This document shows, in pieces, positions 4,467-12,431 of a DNA stretch of 51,610 nt. Each line of letters opens with the position of its first letter. The first letter of the stretch is position 1. The stretch comes from Halorubrum tebenquichense DSM 14210 (GTDB lineage Archaea; Halobacteriota; Halobacteria; Halobacteriales; Haloferacaceae): positions 87,606 through 139,215 of the forward strand of contig NZ_AOJD01000027.1 of assembly GCF_000337415.1 (NCBI RefSeq). The letters run 5' to 3'. The notes beneath the pieces were generated by a model. It searched no databases. It saw only the letters and a list, made by a program, of their open reading frames with translations, and was not told the DNA's origin. The translations under genes were made by a program, and so were the position numbers.

Positions 4467-4794
4467 CGCGAGCGTTCGCGGTTACTGACGCCGGTTTTCG
4501 TGCGGGATGACACGGTTGAAGCTGCTCGTTCGAACACGAGACCGAGTGGGACGGCCGGGCGTTCGAGCGCATCTATATTTGATCTCTCGCAGGCACCTAG
4601 ATGAAGAGTATACAACCGGGATCTCGGATGAAGCCAGTCTTACTCTGACCCGTTGTCTTCCAGTGCGGTCTCTCTTCGCTGCCGATCTCAAACGGATATC
4701 GACACTCAGCATATACGGCTGCGAGTCTGATTGGTGTTAGATGCGGTGGAATCCACGAACCACCATTCGGCGACTCTCTCGGAAGGGGACCCCA
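4467..4794. other. Intergenic boundary of the accessory island
   Basis: This gap contains no convincing gene. Base composition falls here from the very GC-rich core to the more A/T-rich island, the change being clear after about 4570. A TATA-like ATATAC at 4711-4716 is placed to drive msrA. I saw no transposase remnant and no direct repeat matching the right end of the island. Confidence 0.5.
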
Positions 4795-5418
4795 ATGACA
4801 CTCACAGAAACGCAGATACGCGAGTATGACAGTCGTGCGATGGATAGCGCGGAGACTGCCACGGCAACGTTTGGAACCGGTTGTTTCTGGGGGCCAGATG
4901 CCCAGTTCGGGGCGATAGACGGCGTCGTTCGCACCCGTGTCGGCTACGCTGGCGGGACAGAAATCGACCCGACGTATCACGCGTTAGGCGACCACACAGA
5001 GGTGTTCCAAGTCGAATTCGACCCCGACACAATGACGTATCGAGACCTCCTGAATCGGGTGTTCCACTCGCACGACCCACAGCACCAGACCCGAAAGACG
5101 CAGTATCAGAATATCGTGTTCGCCGCGACAGAAGACCAGCGAGCAGTCCTGGATGAATTCCTCGCGACACGGGGCCTCACTGCCGAGGGGATCGGAACAC
5201 GCATCGAACAGCTCTCACGGTTCCATCCCGCTGAAGACTACCACCAGAAGTACAAGCTCCGGTCTGTCTCCTCGTTCATGGATGCGTTCGACGCGGCCGG
5301 ATACGGCGATGAGGAGTTGCGCGAGTCACCGACCGCTGCCAAGCTAAACGGGTACGCTGCCGGACACGATGTTGCTATCGCCGAGGATCTTCAGCCACCG
5401 GATCACGGGACGGCATAG
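4795..5418 (+). CDS. msrA: Peptide methionine sulfoxide reductase MsrA (one-cysteine type)
   Basis: Reduces methionine-S-sulfoxide in proteins, an oxidative repair role in the cytoplasm. The 207-residue protein has the MsrA active-site motif GCFWG, with catalytic Cys30 after a strand (TATATFGTG). Downstream are GVVRTRVGYAGG and the glutamate-containing segment DHTEVFQVEFDP, both family hallmarks. No other cysteine exists in the protein, so a resolving cysteine is missing and recycling must use another thiol. The start at MTLTET is preferred. An ATG at 4741 lies about 28 bases after a TATA-like element and could be a leaderless alternative, but its extra 18 residues look unlike the family. It is the first gene of the island. 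Confidence 0.93.
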   Translation: MTLTETQIREYDSRAMDSAETATATFGTGCFWGPDAQFGAIDGVVRTRVGYAGGTEIDPTYHALGDHTEVFQVEFDPDTMTYRDLLNRVFHSHDPQHQTRKTQYQNIVFAATEDQRAVLDEFLATRGLTAEGIGTRIEQLSRFHPAEDYHQKYKLRSVSSFMDAFDAAGYGDEELRESPTAAKLNGYAAGHDVAIAEDLQPPDHGTA

Positions 5419-5593
5419 ACTCCAGTGGGTTTGACGACAGACAGTACCGTCGGCGATGACGCCCTGACCAGTGTGTACGCGTCGCCTTGGTTCCGAAGCA
5501 GCATACTGATCGCTGGGAGGCAATGCCGCGATTTATGTGCGGGTCTCTCGTCGACTGACGTACGCACGGCGGCCTTCTGTCGCCCGCCCGACC

Positions 5594-6922
5594 ATGGACC
5601 GAACCGATGTGACCCCGGATCCTGACGCGTTGCTTGAGACGGCACTCACGGATCCTGAATCGTTCGACGCCGCCCGAACAGCGAGAGCGGTGGCCCAACT
5701 GGAACACGATGATCCGGAGGTTCAACGGGCGGCGTCGTGGGCGCTCAGATTTGTCGCCGCGGAGGCCCCGTCGCTTATGGAGAGCTGTACGAGACGCTTT
5801 CGACGGGCACTCGATGACCCCGATGCCCGTCCAGTCGTGTTGCGGACACTCGCAGTTGTCGCCGAACACAATCAGGAGGCCGTCGCAGCGACCGTCCAAA
5901 GCGCTGTCGAAGCGGGGATGATCGACCAGCTCGTCGGGCGGCGAGTCGTCGCCGGATACCAGCCGTCCGACTTGGGGGCTGGAGGCTCAGTCATCGCTGA
6001 TGAAGGAGACGAAACATCGGTGCCGACTGGGACGGCTGGATCAACGGTTGAGACCACTCCCGCAGAGTCCCGATCCGACGAGCGTCCGTCATCGTCGGTT
6101 GGGCATCCACCAGCCGATCCGCCGGCGAAACCGCCACAGCTCGACCGGTCGCTAGCTGCGTATGATCCGGTCCCTACGGGTGAACAAACTGTGTCGTCTT
6201 CGAACGCAGACGTCCGGTTCACTGTCGGCGGTCAAGAATTTACTGCGGTCCAGCAAGCGATACCGGCCGTAGGCACCACCGAAGGTGTGTTACAAGACGC
6301 GTTCGACCGGTGGCGTCGGATCGACGATCACGACGCCGTCGCCCGCCTCGTCGATCACGGAGTGCGACCAACACCATGGGCAATCTCTGAGCAAGGTGCC
6401 GTAGGCTCCGTCGTCGAACGGGAGACACCGCTTCCGCCGTTAGAAGCTCGCTGGGTGCTCTCTCGGATCGCGGACGCAGTCCATTACGCACACACTGCTG
6501 GTGTGGTCCATGGTGGACTCTTCCCGAAGTCGATCACGTTTGTGAGCGCGGTCGAAGACCCGGACGCGTGGGCGTACCCGCGGGTGAGCGATTGGGGCCT
6601 CCGTGAGGCGGTTGGATCACGCGACGATGATGCCGTGTCCCGCCAGCACGCAGCCCCCGAACATCTCGCCCCTGACCGGTTCGGTGACGTCGACGCTGCG
6701 ACAGACATCTACGGGATCGGGGTGATTGGGCATTTGCTGGTGACGGGCAACGCGCCGGATCGCGACGACGGAACAGTCCGTTTCCATCCGACAGGTGACC
6801 GCGCCATTCCGGACGACATCTCGATGATTCTCGCAAAGTGTCTCACAACGGCGAAGATGGAACGATATGCCTCTGCGGCCGCAATCCGTCGCGATCTGGC
6901 GACAGAGGGTCACAATGAGTGA
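5594..6922 (+). CDS. HEAT-like repeat plus protein-kinase-like (probable pseudokinase) protein
   Basis: A 442-residue soluble protein in three parts. Residues about 10-110 look like alpha-helical HEAT repeats (EVQRAASWALRFVA). Residues about 118-205 are Pro/Ser/Thr-rich linker. Residues about 215-440 resemble the C-lobe of a Ser/Thr protein kinase. The catalytic loop reads HGGLFPKSI (His306-Gly307-Gly308) where active kinases have HRDLKPxN, so the catalytic aspartate is lost. The DFG motif is DWG (Asp333) and APEHL matches the APE motif. A glycine-rich loop and VAIK lysine are not evident. It is probably a scaffold or sensor. Its end overlaps the next gene by eight bases, suggesting translational coupling. 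TTTATG at 5532-5537 may be its TATA element. Confidence 0.72.
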   Translation: MDRTDVTPDPDALLETALTDPESFDAARTARAVAQLEHDDPEVQRAASWALRFVAAEAPSLMESCTRRFRRALDDPDARPVVLRTLAVVAEHNQEAVAATVQSAVEAGMIDQLVGRRVVAGYQPSDLGAGGSVIADEGDETSVPTGTAGSTVETTPAESRSDERPSSSVGHPPADPPAKPPQLDRSLAAYDPVPTGEQTVSSSNADVRFTVGGQEFTAVQQAIPAVGTTEGVLQDAFDRWRRIDDHDAVARLVDHGVRPTPWAISEQGAVGSVVERETPLPPLEARWVLSRIADAVHYAHTAGVVHGGLFPKSITFVSAVEDPDAWAYPRVSDWGLREAVGSRDDDAVSRQHAAPEHLAPDRFGDVDAATDIYGIGVIGHLLVTGNAPDRDDGTVRFHPTGDRAIPDDISMILAKCLTTAKMERYASAAAIRRDLATEGHNE

Positions 6923-7733
6923 CTCGGTGGGGGTTGATCTGGCCGGCTTCATCGTGGATAGGGGACTCTCCAATCGAGCGTTCGATACAGTGCCATCCCT
7001 AGTCGGCGCGACGACGGCTCCGGTTGGGGGCGGTGTCACCCGGTTCGTTGCGGCTGTCCTCGTTTTGGCAGCCTGTCTCGGTGCGACATGGTACGCGCTC
7101 GTTAGCGCGAGACAGGCACCGCTCGATACGCTCGTGTGGCGCTACGTCGCGTTGTCGGCAGCTGTGGGGAGTGTGTTTGCTGGTCTGCTCATTATCGAAA
7201 CGGTGACCACGACTGTTGGAACCCTCGTCCAAGCGTTCCGTCTCCTCGCACAGCTCTTTTTTGCTGTCTTTTTAGCGCTCTCGCTCCGAGAGTTGTACTA
7301 CGCACAGCCAGCGACCTCCAGTGACGACGACCGGCTCTCGCTGTCGACCGCTCGTCGGATCGAGACCGGGTTCATGGTTCTCGCCTTGGTCCAGTTTCCA
7401 ATCGTTGTCTGGGTCGGGCCGACGGCGGTTGCGCAAGTGATTCTCGCCCTCGCTGCTGGAGCCTTCACGGTGTACGGTGTGTCGTTCGGACAGGCGATCC
7501 GCGCTCGGCGCGTCACTCGTGGGACGGTTCTCGATGCCACCGTCACCTACGTGATCGCAGTGTTGCTCTGCGTCGGTGCGGTGAGTGTCATGGAGGGAGC
7601 AGTTCTCACACCAATTCCGCGGCCAGCTATCGTCGGTGCTGTCAACGTTCTCTTGGCGATGACTGGATCGTTCTTGATCAGTCTGGTCATCCGGCTGAAA
7701 CGGAGCGTCGACGCTGGCGGTCGCACCAGTTGA
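6915..7733 (+). CDS. Seven-transmembrane protein of unknown function
   Basis: A 272-residue integral membrane protein with about seven hydrophobic segments, at roughly residues 43-64, 75-100, 105-125, 148-165, 168-190, 205-230 and 235-258, and short charged loops. No catalytic domain follows the membrane part. The layout resembles the membrane sensor module of some haloarchaeal histidine kinases without the kinase. The start ATG overlaps the last codons of the pseudokinase gene, so the two products are probably made together and may interact at the membrane. That partnership is inferred only from the overlap. Confidence 0.7.
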   Translation: MSDSVGVDLAGFIVDRGLSNRAFDTVPSLVGATTAPVGGGVTRFVAAVLVLAACLGATWYALVSARQAPLDTLVWRYVALSAAVGSVFAGLLIIETVTTTVGTLVQAFRLLAQLFFAVFLALSLRELYYAQPATSSDDDRLSLSTARRIETGFMVLALVQFPIVVWVGPTAVAQVILALAAGAFTVYGVSFGQAIRARRVTRGTVLDATVTYVIAVLLCVGAVSVMEGAVLTPIPRPAIVGAVNVLLAMTGSFLISLVIRLKRSVDAGGRTS

Positions 7734-8090
7734 ATCGAACCACTCCGTGGAAGGAAGAAGCGAGCTTACAAGCGTAAGTGGCAGTCCCCCGGAGCGGTAA
7801 TTGTGATAGATAAGCAGTTCCGAGCGATTCGAGACCTCGTGCCGAGCTGTCTCTGTGAGCGAGCAGAAATACGAGTATCCATACGGCGGGCTGAGTTGAG
7901 TCGCTTCGGTATTCACGGCGAATGTTAACATGAATCTGGCAGTTTGAGCACCAGACCCGGTCACTCTGACTCTGGACGACGTCAAAAGTGAATTCGAGCG
8001 TCTGTGATATCGGTTCTGAGAACTAATACTGCTGGTGAGTACGGTTATATGGCTGAGATTTCTAATATCCCAATAGGAGACCAGACAGTC
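7734..8090. other. Intergenic region before the membrane histidine kinase
   Basis: A/T-richer non-coding stretch. No RNA gene, repeat or insertion-sequence end was recognised. It presumably holds the promoter of the downstream kinase; GGTGAG (8034-8039) and AGGAGA (8075-8080) are candidate ribosome binding sites for two possible starts. Confidence 0.4.
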
Positions 8091-9230
8091 ATGAGTGGTA
8101 TACGGGATGTGAGAACTGGAACATTTCTGTTTGGAGTCCATATCATCTCTGCGCTGGGCCTCGTGGCGTATGTCCTCACCTACACCTGGGCACCGCCTAC
8201 GACTTACTGGGCACGCGCTTTTGCCACCGGATTTCCCGTTGTTGCGGCCATCGCTCTCGTCAGTTACCCGGTGTTGTTTCGTGATCGGGCTGGGCGACAC
8301 TTGCTGTTACATACCTCTGGCGTCGGGGGTGCCATTGGGGGATTCCTCGTCTCCACACCCGGCATCGGGGTGGTTTTCCAACAGGCTCAGATCGGTTCCC
8401 CTGTTATCAACCCAACTATCTTGTTGACCGAGTCGGCCATCGGAGGCATCCTCATTGGTGCCGCTGCTGGTCACTTCTATGGCCAATTTCTTATCGAACG
8501 GAAAGAACTCGCGGCGCAACGGGACCGTCTTGGCCAACACAAAGAACGGCTGACTGTCCTCAACCGAATTCTCCGTCATGACATTCGCAATCACATGAGT
8601 GTCGTTCTGGGCAACGTCACCCTTCTCTCCGATCGGCACGGGAAAGGAGAGTTACTGGAAAACATCGAGTCACACGGACAAAAAGTGGTTGAGATAAGCC
8701 AGAATGCCCGTCAGATAGAGACGACTCTAACAGAGGACGTACCGAGCGCGTCTGTCAATCTCGCCGACCTCGTACGTGACGGTGTCAAGGCGACGACGAT
8801 CGACATCGAAGGAGAAGCCGTTGACATTCGACTCCCCGAAGACGTGAACGTCCAGTCTAATGGCCATCTCGCTTCAGCCGTTCGGAACGTGATCGAGAAC
8901 GCGTTCGAACACAATGATAGCCAGAACCCGGAAGTCATAATCACCGCAACCGTCGACGCTGATATCGGTGAAGTCGAATTGCGAGTGGCGGACAACGGAC
9001 CTGGGATTCCAAAGCGAGAACGGAAAGCACTCGACAGCGGCGAAAACCAACTCCAACATAGCAACGGCCTTGGACTCTGGTTAACCCACTGGGTGATCGA
9101 AGACCTTGGCGGACAGGTCACGTTTCACTCCCGCGACCCACGCGGGACGGTGGTCACTTTTACGCTTCCGACAGTACCGGCCTCTTTTGAGACGGAGGCG
9201 GGTTCGACGAGTTCACGCTCACACCTCTGA
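8091..9230 (+). CDS. Membrane-bound sensor histidine kinase
   Basis: A 379-residue kinase. Four hydrophobic segments (FLFGVHIISALGLVAYVL, then about residues 45-65, 75-95 and 105-130) anchor it. A short coiled coil (ELAAQRDRLGQHKERL) leads to the H-box LRHDIRN with phospho-acceptor His163. The HATPase domain has the N-box NVIENAFEHND, G1 box VADNGPGIP and G2 box GLGLWLTHWVI. No response regulator is adjacent on the same strand. The start is uncertain: ATG 8091 has AGGAGA ten bases upstream; ATG 8049 in the same frame is the alternative. The C-terminus (SFETEAGSTSSRSHL) abuts a kinase pseudogene. Confidence 0.85.
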   Translation: MSGIRDVRTGTFLFGVHIISALGLVAYVLTYTWAPPTTYWARAFATGFPVVAAIALVSYPVLFRDRAGRHLLLHTSGVGGAIGGFLVSTPGIGVVFQQAQIGSPVINPTILLTESAIGGILIGAAAGHFYGQFLIERKELAAQRDRLGQHKERLTVLNRILRHDIRNHMSVVLGNVTLLSDRHGKGELLENIESHGQKVVEISQNARQIETTLTEDVPSASVNLADLVRDGVKATTIDIEGEAVDIRLPEDVNVQSNGHLASAVRNVIENAFEHNDSQNPEVIITATVDADIGEVELRVADNGPGIPKRERKALDSGENQLQHSNGLGLWLTHWVIEDLGGQVTFHSRDPRGTVVTFTLPTVPASFETEAGSTSSRSHL

Positions 9231-9984
9231 CTGGGAAGAGACGCTGATTGACCTCATGCGCGGCTGGGTGAGTGGTGAACTACAACAAGAGCAGGCACCC
9301 CCGGAGCGACAAACGCAAAACGAACAACTGGATGAGTTCGGACGCGTTGTGTCCCATGAGTTGCGAAGTCCGTTGAACGCCATTGAGGGGCGACTCGAGT
9401 TGGCGAAAGAAGCGTGTGACAGCGATCACCTTGGCCCCATTGACGACGCCGTTTCGCGAATGGAGTCGCTCATTGACAATCTGCTCGTATTGGCCCGCAC
9501 CGACGAACAGGTGTGTGAGTTGGAGACTGTAGATTTAGCTGAGATCGTGACAAGTTACTGACAGCGTGTGGCTACTGGAGATGCCACACACTTAGATGTC
9601 GAACAGCCGATCCGAGCAGACAGCAGTCGTCTCCAGCAACACCTCGAGAATTTCTCACGCAATGCGATTGAACACGGCGGTGACGATGTCGCTGTAACTA
9701 TCGACGAGTTAGATGACGGGTTCTCTGTCGAAGACCCCGGTCCCGGCGTTCCGGCAGACAATCGAGAGGCGGCATTTGGTGTAGGCTACTCTACGAGAGG
9801 GGATGGCACTGGATTCGGACTGAGTGTTGTCAAACGCGTCGCACAGGGCCACGGTCGGAGCGCTGTTGCGACAACCGGGGTTGAGAGTGGGGCCCGATTT
9901 GAGATCACCGGTGTTGCCTCCCAGAGTGAGTTCAGTTCGGTGTTCGAGAGGGGTACTATTCAGTTGAAAACTCGACACCAGTGA
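9229..9984 (+). pseudogene. Truncated GAF-histidine kinase with nonsense TGA
   Basis: A remnant of a haloarchaeal sensor kinase in a single frame. It opens at the tail of a GAF domain (DWEETLIDLMRGWVSGEL) without the rest of that domain. The H-box VVSHELRSPLNAIEG is intact. At 9559-9561 a TGA interrupts the frame; the paralogue encoded convergently at 9956 has tryptophan there (CWQTVETGD versus Y-stop-QRVATGD), so TGG to TGA is the simplest origin. Beyond the stop the HATPase domain continues intact (NAIEHGGDDVAVTI, GTGFGLSVVKRV, FEITGV). The first in-frame ATG is at 9256. Its end overlaps the convergent gene by 29 bases. Confidence 0.85.
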
Positions 9985-10747
9985 TTTCAAACCGCGTGCC
10001 GCCTCGGGACCCGTTGGTCACGCGAACGGTCCAGCCGTGGGCGTCGACGATCTGCCGTACGATTGGAAGACCGAAGCCCGTTCCCTCGTCGCTCGTCGTA
10101 TACCCGGCATCGAAGATCTGCTCTTGTTCATCAACAGGAATACCACCCCCGTCATCTTCGACGTAGAATCCCTCCTCTATGTCACCAACCCTGATCGTCA
10201 CGTCGTCACCGCCGTGTTCGACTGCGTTCCGAAACAAGTTCTCCAACACTTGCGCGAGTCGGCTTCGGTCGGCTCGGATTGTCCGCTCAGCCTCAGTGAC
10301 GAGGGTAGCGTCACCTGTCTCGACTGTTTGCCAACAGGCCTCTGTGAGACTATCCAAATTAACCGGCTCCGGATCGGTCACCTTGTCTCCCTCACGTGCC
10401 AACGCTAGCAGGTCGTCGATCAATGACTCCATCCGGTCGTGTGCTTTCGCTATTGCATCGAGAGAATCGCTCTCATACTTCTCTTGAACCAGCTCGAGGT
10501 GACCTTCGGCCACCCCCAACGGATTCTGGAGGTCGTGACTGACGATGCTGGCAAATTCGTCCAGGCGGTCCCGTTCCGCCCGGAGGCGTTGCCTTTGCAT
10601 TTCCAGTTCCATCTCATGGTCGACTCGATCGAGTACCGCTGTCAGGATCGTTGCGAGTAGTTCCGTGAGATACCGATCCGTTTTATCGAACGCGTTTGGT
10701 TCGGGCGAGGTTGTAACGAATATCCCGTGATCGCCGAGCGGGTACAC
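9956..10747 (-). CDS. C-terminal half of split kinase: GAF end plus histidine kinase
   Basis: This 263-residue open part contains the end of a GAF domain, a coiled coil (EMELEMQRQRLRAERDRLDEF broken at its end), the H-box IVSHDLQNPLG and a full HATPase domain (NLFRNAVEHGGDDV, VEDDGGGIPV, GTGFGLPIVRQIV). It begins at the first ATG after the nonsense codon, which need not be a real start; coding similarity extends up to the TGA at 10886. If translated it would be a soluble kinase without its sensor. It is closely related to the convergent pseudogene ending at 9984. Confidence 0.6.
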   Translation of the reverse strand: MYPLGDHGIFVTTSPEPNAFDKTDRYLTELLATILTAVLDRVDHEMELEMQRQRLRAERDRLDEFASIVSHDLQNPLGVAEGHLELVQEKYESDSLDAIAKAHDRMESLIDDLLALAREGDKVTDPEPVNLDSLTEACWQTVETGDATLVTEAERTIRADRSRLAQVLENLFRNAVEHGGDDVTIRVGDIEEGFYVEDDGGGIPVDEQEQIFDAGYTTSDEGTGFGLPIVRQIVDAHGWTVRVTNGSRGGTRFEITGVEFSTE

Positions 10748-10885
10748 GAGTCCGCTTCGCGTCGGCGTTTCAGCAGCGTCTATGGAATCGACGTCTTCGA
10801 TGTCGTCAATGACGACTGGGTCACCAGCCTCGAATACCGCCCAATTGAACTCATCGATAGTTCGTGACGGGGTCGTCCGATCGTA

Positions 10886-12292
10886 TCACGGGGCAGTACC
10901 CAATTGTTTCCGGACGCCGTCGGATACCGCAACCGGTTCGAGTACATTCGGGTTATCGCCGATGAGGTGAACACCAGTAAACGGAAGCCCGAGCGTCTGT
11001 TCTGCGATTTCGACAGTCGTTTCGGCGACCGCTTCGGTGGTCTCTGCGCGGATGAGATCCTGGGCTTGCTGTTGGAGGTCACGGGTCATCTCTCGGCGGT
11101 CTTCGCGGTCGGTAACGTCCTGATAGACCCAGAGATGACCGTTCCCATCAGGGAGTTCAAGCGGTCGGTAACTCCGTTCGAACGTTCGCCCATCACTGAC
11201 TGAGAGGACTTCCTGATCGACCGGAGTTCGATTCGCCACCAATTCGTTGATCCGATTAACAAATCTGTCCCCGCCGACAAATTGGTCGCTCAGCTGTGCG
11301 GCCAACCGTTCACAATCCGTGCCGACGACGGTGTCCGGTGGGTCGGGTATCTCGAACAGTTCCAACGCCCGTTCGTTGACCGTCAGCACGTTGCGGTTTT
11401 CGTCTTCTGCGAGAATCCCGACGGTGGCCGTTTCGAAGACTGTCGAGAGTACGGCGTTCGTTTCTTCGAGTTCCTGTTCGCGCTCCTGCTGCTCGGTGAT
11501 GTCGGTGATAAACCCTTCCAACGCTTCCAAGTCCCCATCGGCAGAGTAAATCCCCCGCCCGCGCTCCCACATCCACTTCGTCGTACCGTTTTTAGTGACG
11601 ATCCGATAAGTCACCTCGAACGAGCCGTCCCCAGAGAGCCCCTCTTGGACAGTGTTCCACATTGGTTCCCTGTCGTCGGGGTGGATGATTTCTGTCCCCC
11701 ACAGCACGTCGTTGTCTTCGAGCCTGTCGGCACGATACCCAGTCAAGTCCTCGACATCGCCGTCGACGGTTTCCATCGGCCACGCGGGGTCGTTTCGGCA
11801 CCGGTAGACCATTCCTGGAAGGTTGCTGATGAGCGTCTCTAACTGTCGCGTCTGTTCTTGTGCCAACTGCTGTGTTCGATGCCCATCGACGGCGTTCAGA
11901 ACCCGGTTAGCGAGCAGTTCGTACTGTTCGGTCCCGCTCTCTTTCTGGAGGTAGTCGGTAACACCGGCCGAGATTGCTTCGCTTGCCACCTCCTCTGAAC
12001 CCTTGCCGGTGAACAAAATAAACGGGATCTCAGGGTATTCATCGCGGACCTTTGTGAGAAACTGGATGCCGTTCTGGCCGGGCATATCGTAATCCGAAAT
12101 GATACAGTCGAACGTACCTTCAGCCAACTGGGTTAGACCGTCAGCGGCGCTGGTCGCTGCCTCGATACTGAATCGGTCATCTTTGCGTTTGAGATACGTG
12201 GCGGTCAGCTCTGCCACATCTGGCTCGTCATCAACATGGAGGACTCGAATCGACTGGAGTTCTGGTTCCATCTGTGATAAGCTAGAGGTCAT
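10886..12292 (-). CDS. N-terminal half of split kinase: receiver-PAS-PAS-partial GAF
   Basis: 468 residues. A response-regulator receiver domain (about 16-130) has the acidic pair DDE (21-23), phospho-acceptor Asp67 in ISDYDMPG and the conserved Lys in DYLQKES. Two PAS domains follow (about 155-275 and 285-400), the first ending in FITDITEQQ and the second in VYQDVTDRE. A GAF domain starts near residue 415 and is cut by the TGA. Such hybrid proteins normally receive phosphate from, or pass it to, other kinases. Without the kinase half this product could act only as a receiver/PAS protein. The start ATG at 12292 has an in-frame alternative seven codons later. Confidence 0.75.
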   Translation of the reverse strand: MTSSLSQMEPELQSIRVLHVDDEPDVAELTATYLKRKDDRFSIEAATSAADGLTQLAEGTFDCIISDYDMPGQNGIQFLTKVRDEYPEIPFILFTGKGSEEVASEAISAGVTDYLQKESGTEQYELLANRVLNAVDGHRTQQLAQEQTRQLETLISNLPGMVYRCRNDPAWPMETVDGDVEDLTGYRADRLEDNDVLWGTEIIHPDDREPMWNTVQEGLSGDGSFEVTYRIVTKNGTTKWMWERGRGIYSADGDLEALEGFITDITEQQEREQELEETNAVLSTVFETATVGILAEDENRNVLTVNERALELFEIPDPPDTVVGTDCERLAAQLSDQFVGGDRFVNRINELVANRTPVDQEVLSVSDGRTFERSYRPLELPDGNGHLWVYQDVTDREDRREMTRDLQQQAQDLIRAETTEAVAETTVEIAEQTLGLPFTGVHLIGDNPNVLEPVAVSDGVRKQLGTAP

Positions 12293-12431
12293 TTGGACTC
12301 CCCCACTATGTGACTGAGTATCATTCTGTTGTGGGATACTGTAACTGTACCGGCGCTATCGCTACTATCGAATATTATTCCGCGGAACGATGGAGCAAAT
12401 CAGCCGAGTAGTCGCCTTCGGTACCGAGCGA
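12293..12431. other. Right edge of the accessory island
   Basis: Short intergenic stretch where base composition returns to the GC-rich core (after about 12395). It holds a 10-base palindrome TTCCGCGGAA at 12378-12387 flanked by A/T-rich DNA. No insertion-sequence end or repeat of the left edge was seen. Confidence 0.4.

Follow-up and report, generated by a model that had tools for sequence, protein, structure and literature searches.

A HEAT-repeat pseudokinase gene linked to the gene of a seven-helix membrane protein in haloarchaea

In a stretch of 51,610 nucleotides from Halorubrum tebenquichense DSM 14210, referred to here as the window, a gene for a HEAT-repeat pseudokinase runs directly into a gene for a seven-helix membrane protein, and the same arrangement recurs across other haloarchaeal genomes. 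This linkage of the two genes, together with the loss of catalytic residues from the kinase-like domain, is a solid finding by computation. We give about an even chance (roughly 0.5) to the reading that the genes form a conserved haloarchaeal two-gene module, in which a soluble HEAT-pseudokinase adaptor docked on the membrane protein would relay changes in that protein to a target. With this pair, a non-catalytic role of a pseudokinase could be tested in an archaeon using a single partner and a single gene deletion.

Gene linkage and co-inheritance

The pseudokinase gene (442 amino acids) occupies positions 5594..6922 of the window on the + strand and was identified by a Pfam Pkinase match of 1.9e-9, above the cut-off and chiefly to the C-lobe, as well as by relatives that likewise adjoin a membrane gene. 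The membrane protein gene (272 amino acids, + strand, 6915..7733) belongs to an unnamed family and was assigned by hydropathy and by the helices in a structure model, there being no Pfam match of any weight. As an earlier note on this DNA had stated, the second gene begins within the first: the two overlap by 8 nt (6915..6922, + strand), with the true ATG at 6915, and the identical -8 overlap is found in six relatives (L003, L006, L069, L073, L075 and L126). The longest open reading frame would start at 6867, but this start was rejected, since in relatives the gene starts close to the kinase stop codon or right at it. Spacing in relatives consists of overlaps of 4-11 nt or short gaps; in Haladaptataceae the gaps are mostly about 0.3-0.6 kb, with some of only 30-131 nt.

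We surveyed 392 genomes of the window organism's order. Of these, 100 matched the kinase profile (E<=1e-60) and 131 matched the membrane profile (E<=1e-5). Dividing the membrane-gene places by score, with 8 fragment rows excluded, gave 89 places, from 87 genomes, in clade A and 46 in clade B. The earlier note had named beforehand, as its refuting test, a failure of the two genes to co-occur in other archaea; instead, the pseudokinase gene lies directly upstream, on the same strand and within 2 kb, at 82 of the 89 clade A places, whereas none of the 46 clade B places has a kinase within 5 kb. The seven clade A exceptions differ among themselves. One falls at a contig edge where a kinase fragment is present (G165), another has a broken kinase (G190), and a third carries the membrane gene without a kinase at E<=1e-60 (G298); G182 and a second copy in G244 also have no linked kinase. 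In the remaining two genomes both genes are present but apart, by about 92 kb in G017 and by about 3.5 kb on opposite strands in G147, so the two need not adjoin each other. Matches in a sample drawn from the whole phylum came from 27 of 392 genomes, every one of them in the same order. The pair is also patchy, and thus dispensable, as most sampled genomes of the same genus have no full-length match. Genes flanking the pair vary between families, indicating that the linkage does not reflect synteny of the whole region, and the clearer gene calls revealed no third gene conserved near the pair, neighbourhood clustering being noisy with shadow frames.

Several features of individual loci deserve mention. 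In the window the pair is followed by a histidine kinase, which was not seen at this place in six Halorubrum-type loci (L069, L003, L005, L006, L070 and L071). In Haladaptataceae, 17 of 20 loci have a REC-HalX regulator 1.1-6.6 kb beyond the membrane gene on its downstream side (e.g. L091:10024-10590), as against 1 of 45 other loci, and the regulator is therefore treated as lineage-specific; it is also present in the two genomes whose kinase has moved off. In Halorubrum ezzemoulense DSM 17463 (L007:7060-7957) the kinase frame is interrupted, its two matching parts lying about 0.9 kb apart. Positions 4500-12400 of the window, which contain the pair and several histidine kinases, have a lower G+C content (about 0.54-0.64) than the whole window (0.686). 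Within them, 9106-9984 holds two successive reading frames in the same phase split by an in-frame stop, the first with part of HisKA, apparently a broken histidine kinase. On Halorussus and Haladaptatus plasmids, public records annotate the two genes as 'HEAT repeat domain-containing protein' and 'hypothetical protein'; those of Halomicrococcus are labelled 'protein kinase' and 'hypothetical protein' and are non-adjacent.

Trees of 59 kinases and of their 59 membrane proteins are congruent, with a distance correlation of r = 0.90, whereas 2000 permutations gave no value above 0.16. They have 38 of 56 splits in common, 29 of which are supported in both, and the two supported conflicts both lie among close relatives. 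Shared species history alone would explain some of this congruence, but not two placements that disagree with taxonomy and recur in both trees: G051 and G244, of family f4, fall with f1 (support 0.935 and 0.998), and G251, of f1, falls with f10 members (0.988 and 0.993). Thus, the two genes seem to travel together. Purifying selection acts on both: over eight close pairs, dN/dS is 0.14-0.40 in the kinase gene and 0.11-0.39 in the membrane gene. When the window was compared with three relatives, the HEAT region had the lowest dN of three regions of the kinase gene.

Loss of catalytic residues and the HEAT region

The kinase-like domain (about residues 205-437; 6206..6904, + strand) has a degenerate N-lobe and was recognised by Pkinase and PknB matches. 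All 33 family members examined match Pkinase at E<=1, and the above-cut-off match of the window protein places it in the protein kinase-like superfamily of Hanks type. Inspection of the motifs and the family alignment bear out the earlier reading of HGG in place of HRD (6509..6517, + strand) and extend it to a loss of catalytic residues throughout the family. We aligned 59 kinases from membrane-gene loci, 58 of them linked and L089 unlinked. Not one of the 59 retains the HRD Asp. At the catalytic-loop Lys position, mostly Asp or Arg is found, Asp occurring in 20 of 59 as H-x-x-x-D-P, and the Asn position retains Asn in just 9; the window protein has Phe and Ser, respectively, at these positions. 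By alignment, DWG at 6590..6598 (+ strand) is the equivalent of DFG, and active relatives also have the DWG form; its Asp is kept in 28 of the 59. Active relatives have a GSGG loop, a beta3 Lys and an alphaC Glu, none of which was seen in the aligned N-lobes of the pseudokinases. Seven further kinases adjoining a membrane gene, beyond the 59, likewise have no HRD Asp, and the 13 kinases of the same order that retain it in the same alignment all retain the Lys and Asn as well; none of these 13 adjoins a membrane gene.

Missing the HRD Asp, catalytic-loop Lys and Asn, the window protein does not qualify as an active Hanks kinase; by its motifs it is a pseudokinase, that is, a kinase-like domain with the catalytic motifs lost, although the model of its fold is of low confidence. 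From these substitutions we infer that catalytic activity has been lost, probably along with ATP binding. Such loss also occurs outside the pair, the HRD Asp being missing in nine solo paralogues (L153-L161) and in two other unpaired kinases (L032 and L167) as well. The nine paralogues make up a second lineage of pseudokinases, one that lacks a membrane partner, and their host genomes also have the pair or the membrane gene. PADLOC matches were set aside as a kinase domain resembling other kinases.

A HEAT-like helical region lies at the N-terminus (about residues 1-125; 5594..5968, + strand). The HEAT repeats described in the earlier note are clear across the family, where HEAT_EZ matches 24 of 33 members and HEAT_2 23 of 33 at E<=1 (best 3e-11), whereas in the window protein alone they stay below the cut-off (HEAT_EZ 0.015, Arm 0.009). 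Seven helices fill this region in an AlphaFold model, and two relatives are publicly annotated as 'HEAT repeat domain-containing protein'. The AlphaFold models of the membrane protein and the pseudokinase were built on shallow alignments (6 and 5 rows, respectively, from the window and L003-L007) and are of low confidence, with pLDDT of 46.9 and 35.7. HEAT solenoids are used in assembly as well as in signalling.

The membrane protein, its inner face and the role of the pair

Seven membrane spans were fitted by hydropathy, and seven long helices appear in the low-confidence model, in agreement with the earlier description of a seven-helix membrane protein without a soluble output domain. The same description called the protein sensor-like. 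We found no sensor homology, and an hhalign profile comparison with the seven-helix histidine-kinase domain HisKA_7TM (PF16927), which had no Pfam match in 35 members of the membrane family, gave a probability of 1%. The Pfam scan of these 35 members returned no named family. Profile searches of Pfam, NCBIfam and the PDB with the membrane protein gave only scattered weak matches, beyond which no transporter or secretion family was found, and phages gave no match. Charge counts predict that the loops between helices 1-2, 3-4 and 5-6 and the C-terminus lie inside. With helix limits set by hand from hydropathy and the model, the inner loops are more conserved than the outer ones (mean 2.13 versus 1.30 bits, p = 0.001).

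Profile comparison joins the membrane family to its sister, clade B, at 100%. R125, T204 and Y77 are common to both clades, and E126, R147, E150, D207 and R/K260 are kept in most clade A proteins: all five of these inner-face charges occur in 46 of 59, at least four in 48 and three in 11. In clade B, all five are replaced by uncharged residues in the 12 of 12 proteins examined, a sample made up of 11 of the 46 clade B places and L127 (G298), which was counted in clade A by score. These clade-specific charges fit a face on which the kinase would dock, but they could also reflect general divergence. In place of a kinase, the sister-clade genes at L142:8247-10139 and L145:8170-10164 have a trypsin-PDZ protein or a multicopper oxidase as their neighbour.

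Taken together, the linkage and co-inheritance of the pair point to an undescribed membrane-bound complex in haloarchaea, in which the membrane partner bears no family name. Complex formation by the two proteins is likely, and we are fairly confident that they physically dock. In the proposed mechanism, the conserved charged face of the membrane-embedded seven-helix protein would point into the cytosol, and the HEAT-pseudokinase, a soluble adaptor, would dock there. By way of its HEAT solenoid, the pseudokinase could then relay changes in its membrane partner to a target encoded elsewhere. A sensor role for the membrane protein and an adaptor role for the pseudokinase are plausible; given docking, we regard signalling and a structural role as evenly balanced. 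More tentatively, and with the odds somewhat against it, the pair may represent a new class of archaeal transmembrane signalling that is free of phosphorylation, with a seven-helix receptor of an unnamed family and a dedicated soluble HEAT-pseudokinase carried as a transferred two-gene cassette.

The main rival to the relay module is a structural or transport role, in which the pseudokinase would be the assembly platform of a membrane machine and no signalling would take place. We hold this to be unlikely on balance, but the absence of sensor homology in the membrane protein speaks for it, as does the use of HEAT solenoids in assembly. According to PMC12599244, moreover, the best-known prokaryotic pseudokinases, EssB/YukC and MviN, serve as membrane scaffolds. 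A machine of this kind is harder to reconcile with the variable flanks, with the failure to recognise a conserved third gene, and with the transporter and secretion searches, which yielded nothing beyond scattered weak matches. Could the domain instead be an active non-canonical kinase or nucleotidyl-transferase with its catalytic residues relocated? The recurrent Asp at the Lys position and the DWG Asp kept in nearly half of the alignment would suit such an enzyme; yet the universal loss of the HRD Asp, the missing N-lobe elements, and the Phe and Ser of the window protein make it very improbable.

As eukaryotic pseudokinases do for their siblings, the protein might also serve as the allosteric partner of an active Hanks-type kinase, and active relatives with HLDLKPEN do exist in other genomes of the order. 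However, in the window genome (99.7% complete) the sole Pkinase match above the cut-off is the pseudokinase itself, the second match being a RIO-type protein, which argues against a sibling-kinase activator there and makes this reading very improbable. Finally, the patchiness within the genus and the interrupted kinase of L007 would be expected of a decaying kinase that happens to lie next to an unrelated membrane gene, but this is largely excluded by the linkage, by purifying selection on both genes and by the congruent trees.

Comparison with known systems

We found no description of the pair, or of a comparable haloarchaeal pseudokinase, in the accessible parts of the literature searched, which included PMC12599244, PMC7226565, PMC5682000, PMC5847659 and PMC12704722 and left most subscription journals outside its scope. 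The closest likeness is to EssB/YukC, which PMC12599244 describes as a pseudokinase of Firmicutes type VII secretion with degraded motifs that acts at the membrane together with an integral membrane protein. Both are prokaryotic pseudokinases with degraded catalytic motifs, and work with a membrane partner, known for EssB/YukC, is predicted here. However, EssB has its own transmembrane helix and a secretion gene set, whereas the haloarchaeal pseudokinase is predicted to be soluble, with a HEAT-like N-terminus, and is linked to a single seven-helix protein. Among the listed neighbours of the pair, we recognised no genes of type VII secretion. The actinobacterial pseudokinases MviN/ActPs3 are likewise tied to a polytopic membrane protein, according to the same source. 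In MviN the pseudokinase domain lies within the transmembrane protein itself, while the haloarchaeal proteins are encoded by separate, overlapping genes. HisKA_7TM also has about seven helices and is common in the same genomes, but apart from the negligible profile similarity noted above, the membrane protein has no fused kinase.

The nearest active relatives that we found are the haloarchaeal Hanks-type kinases with HLDLKPEN, which have the same kinase domain family; one of them, in G103 (L168), also matches the kinase-family profile N-terminal to its kinase domain. In contrast to the pseudokinase, these enzymes keep the GSGG loop, beta3 Lys, alphaC Glu, HLD, Lys, Asn and DWG, and they stand apart from the membrane gene in every case. 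The pair is clearly distinct both from its active relatives and from the kinase-free sister clade of membrane proteins, either of which can be used as a control.
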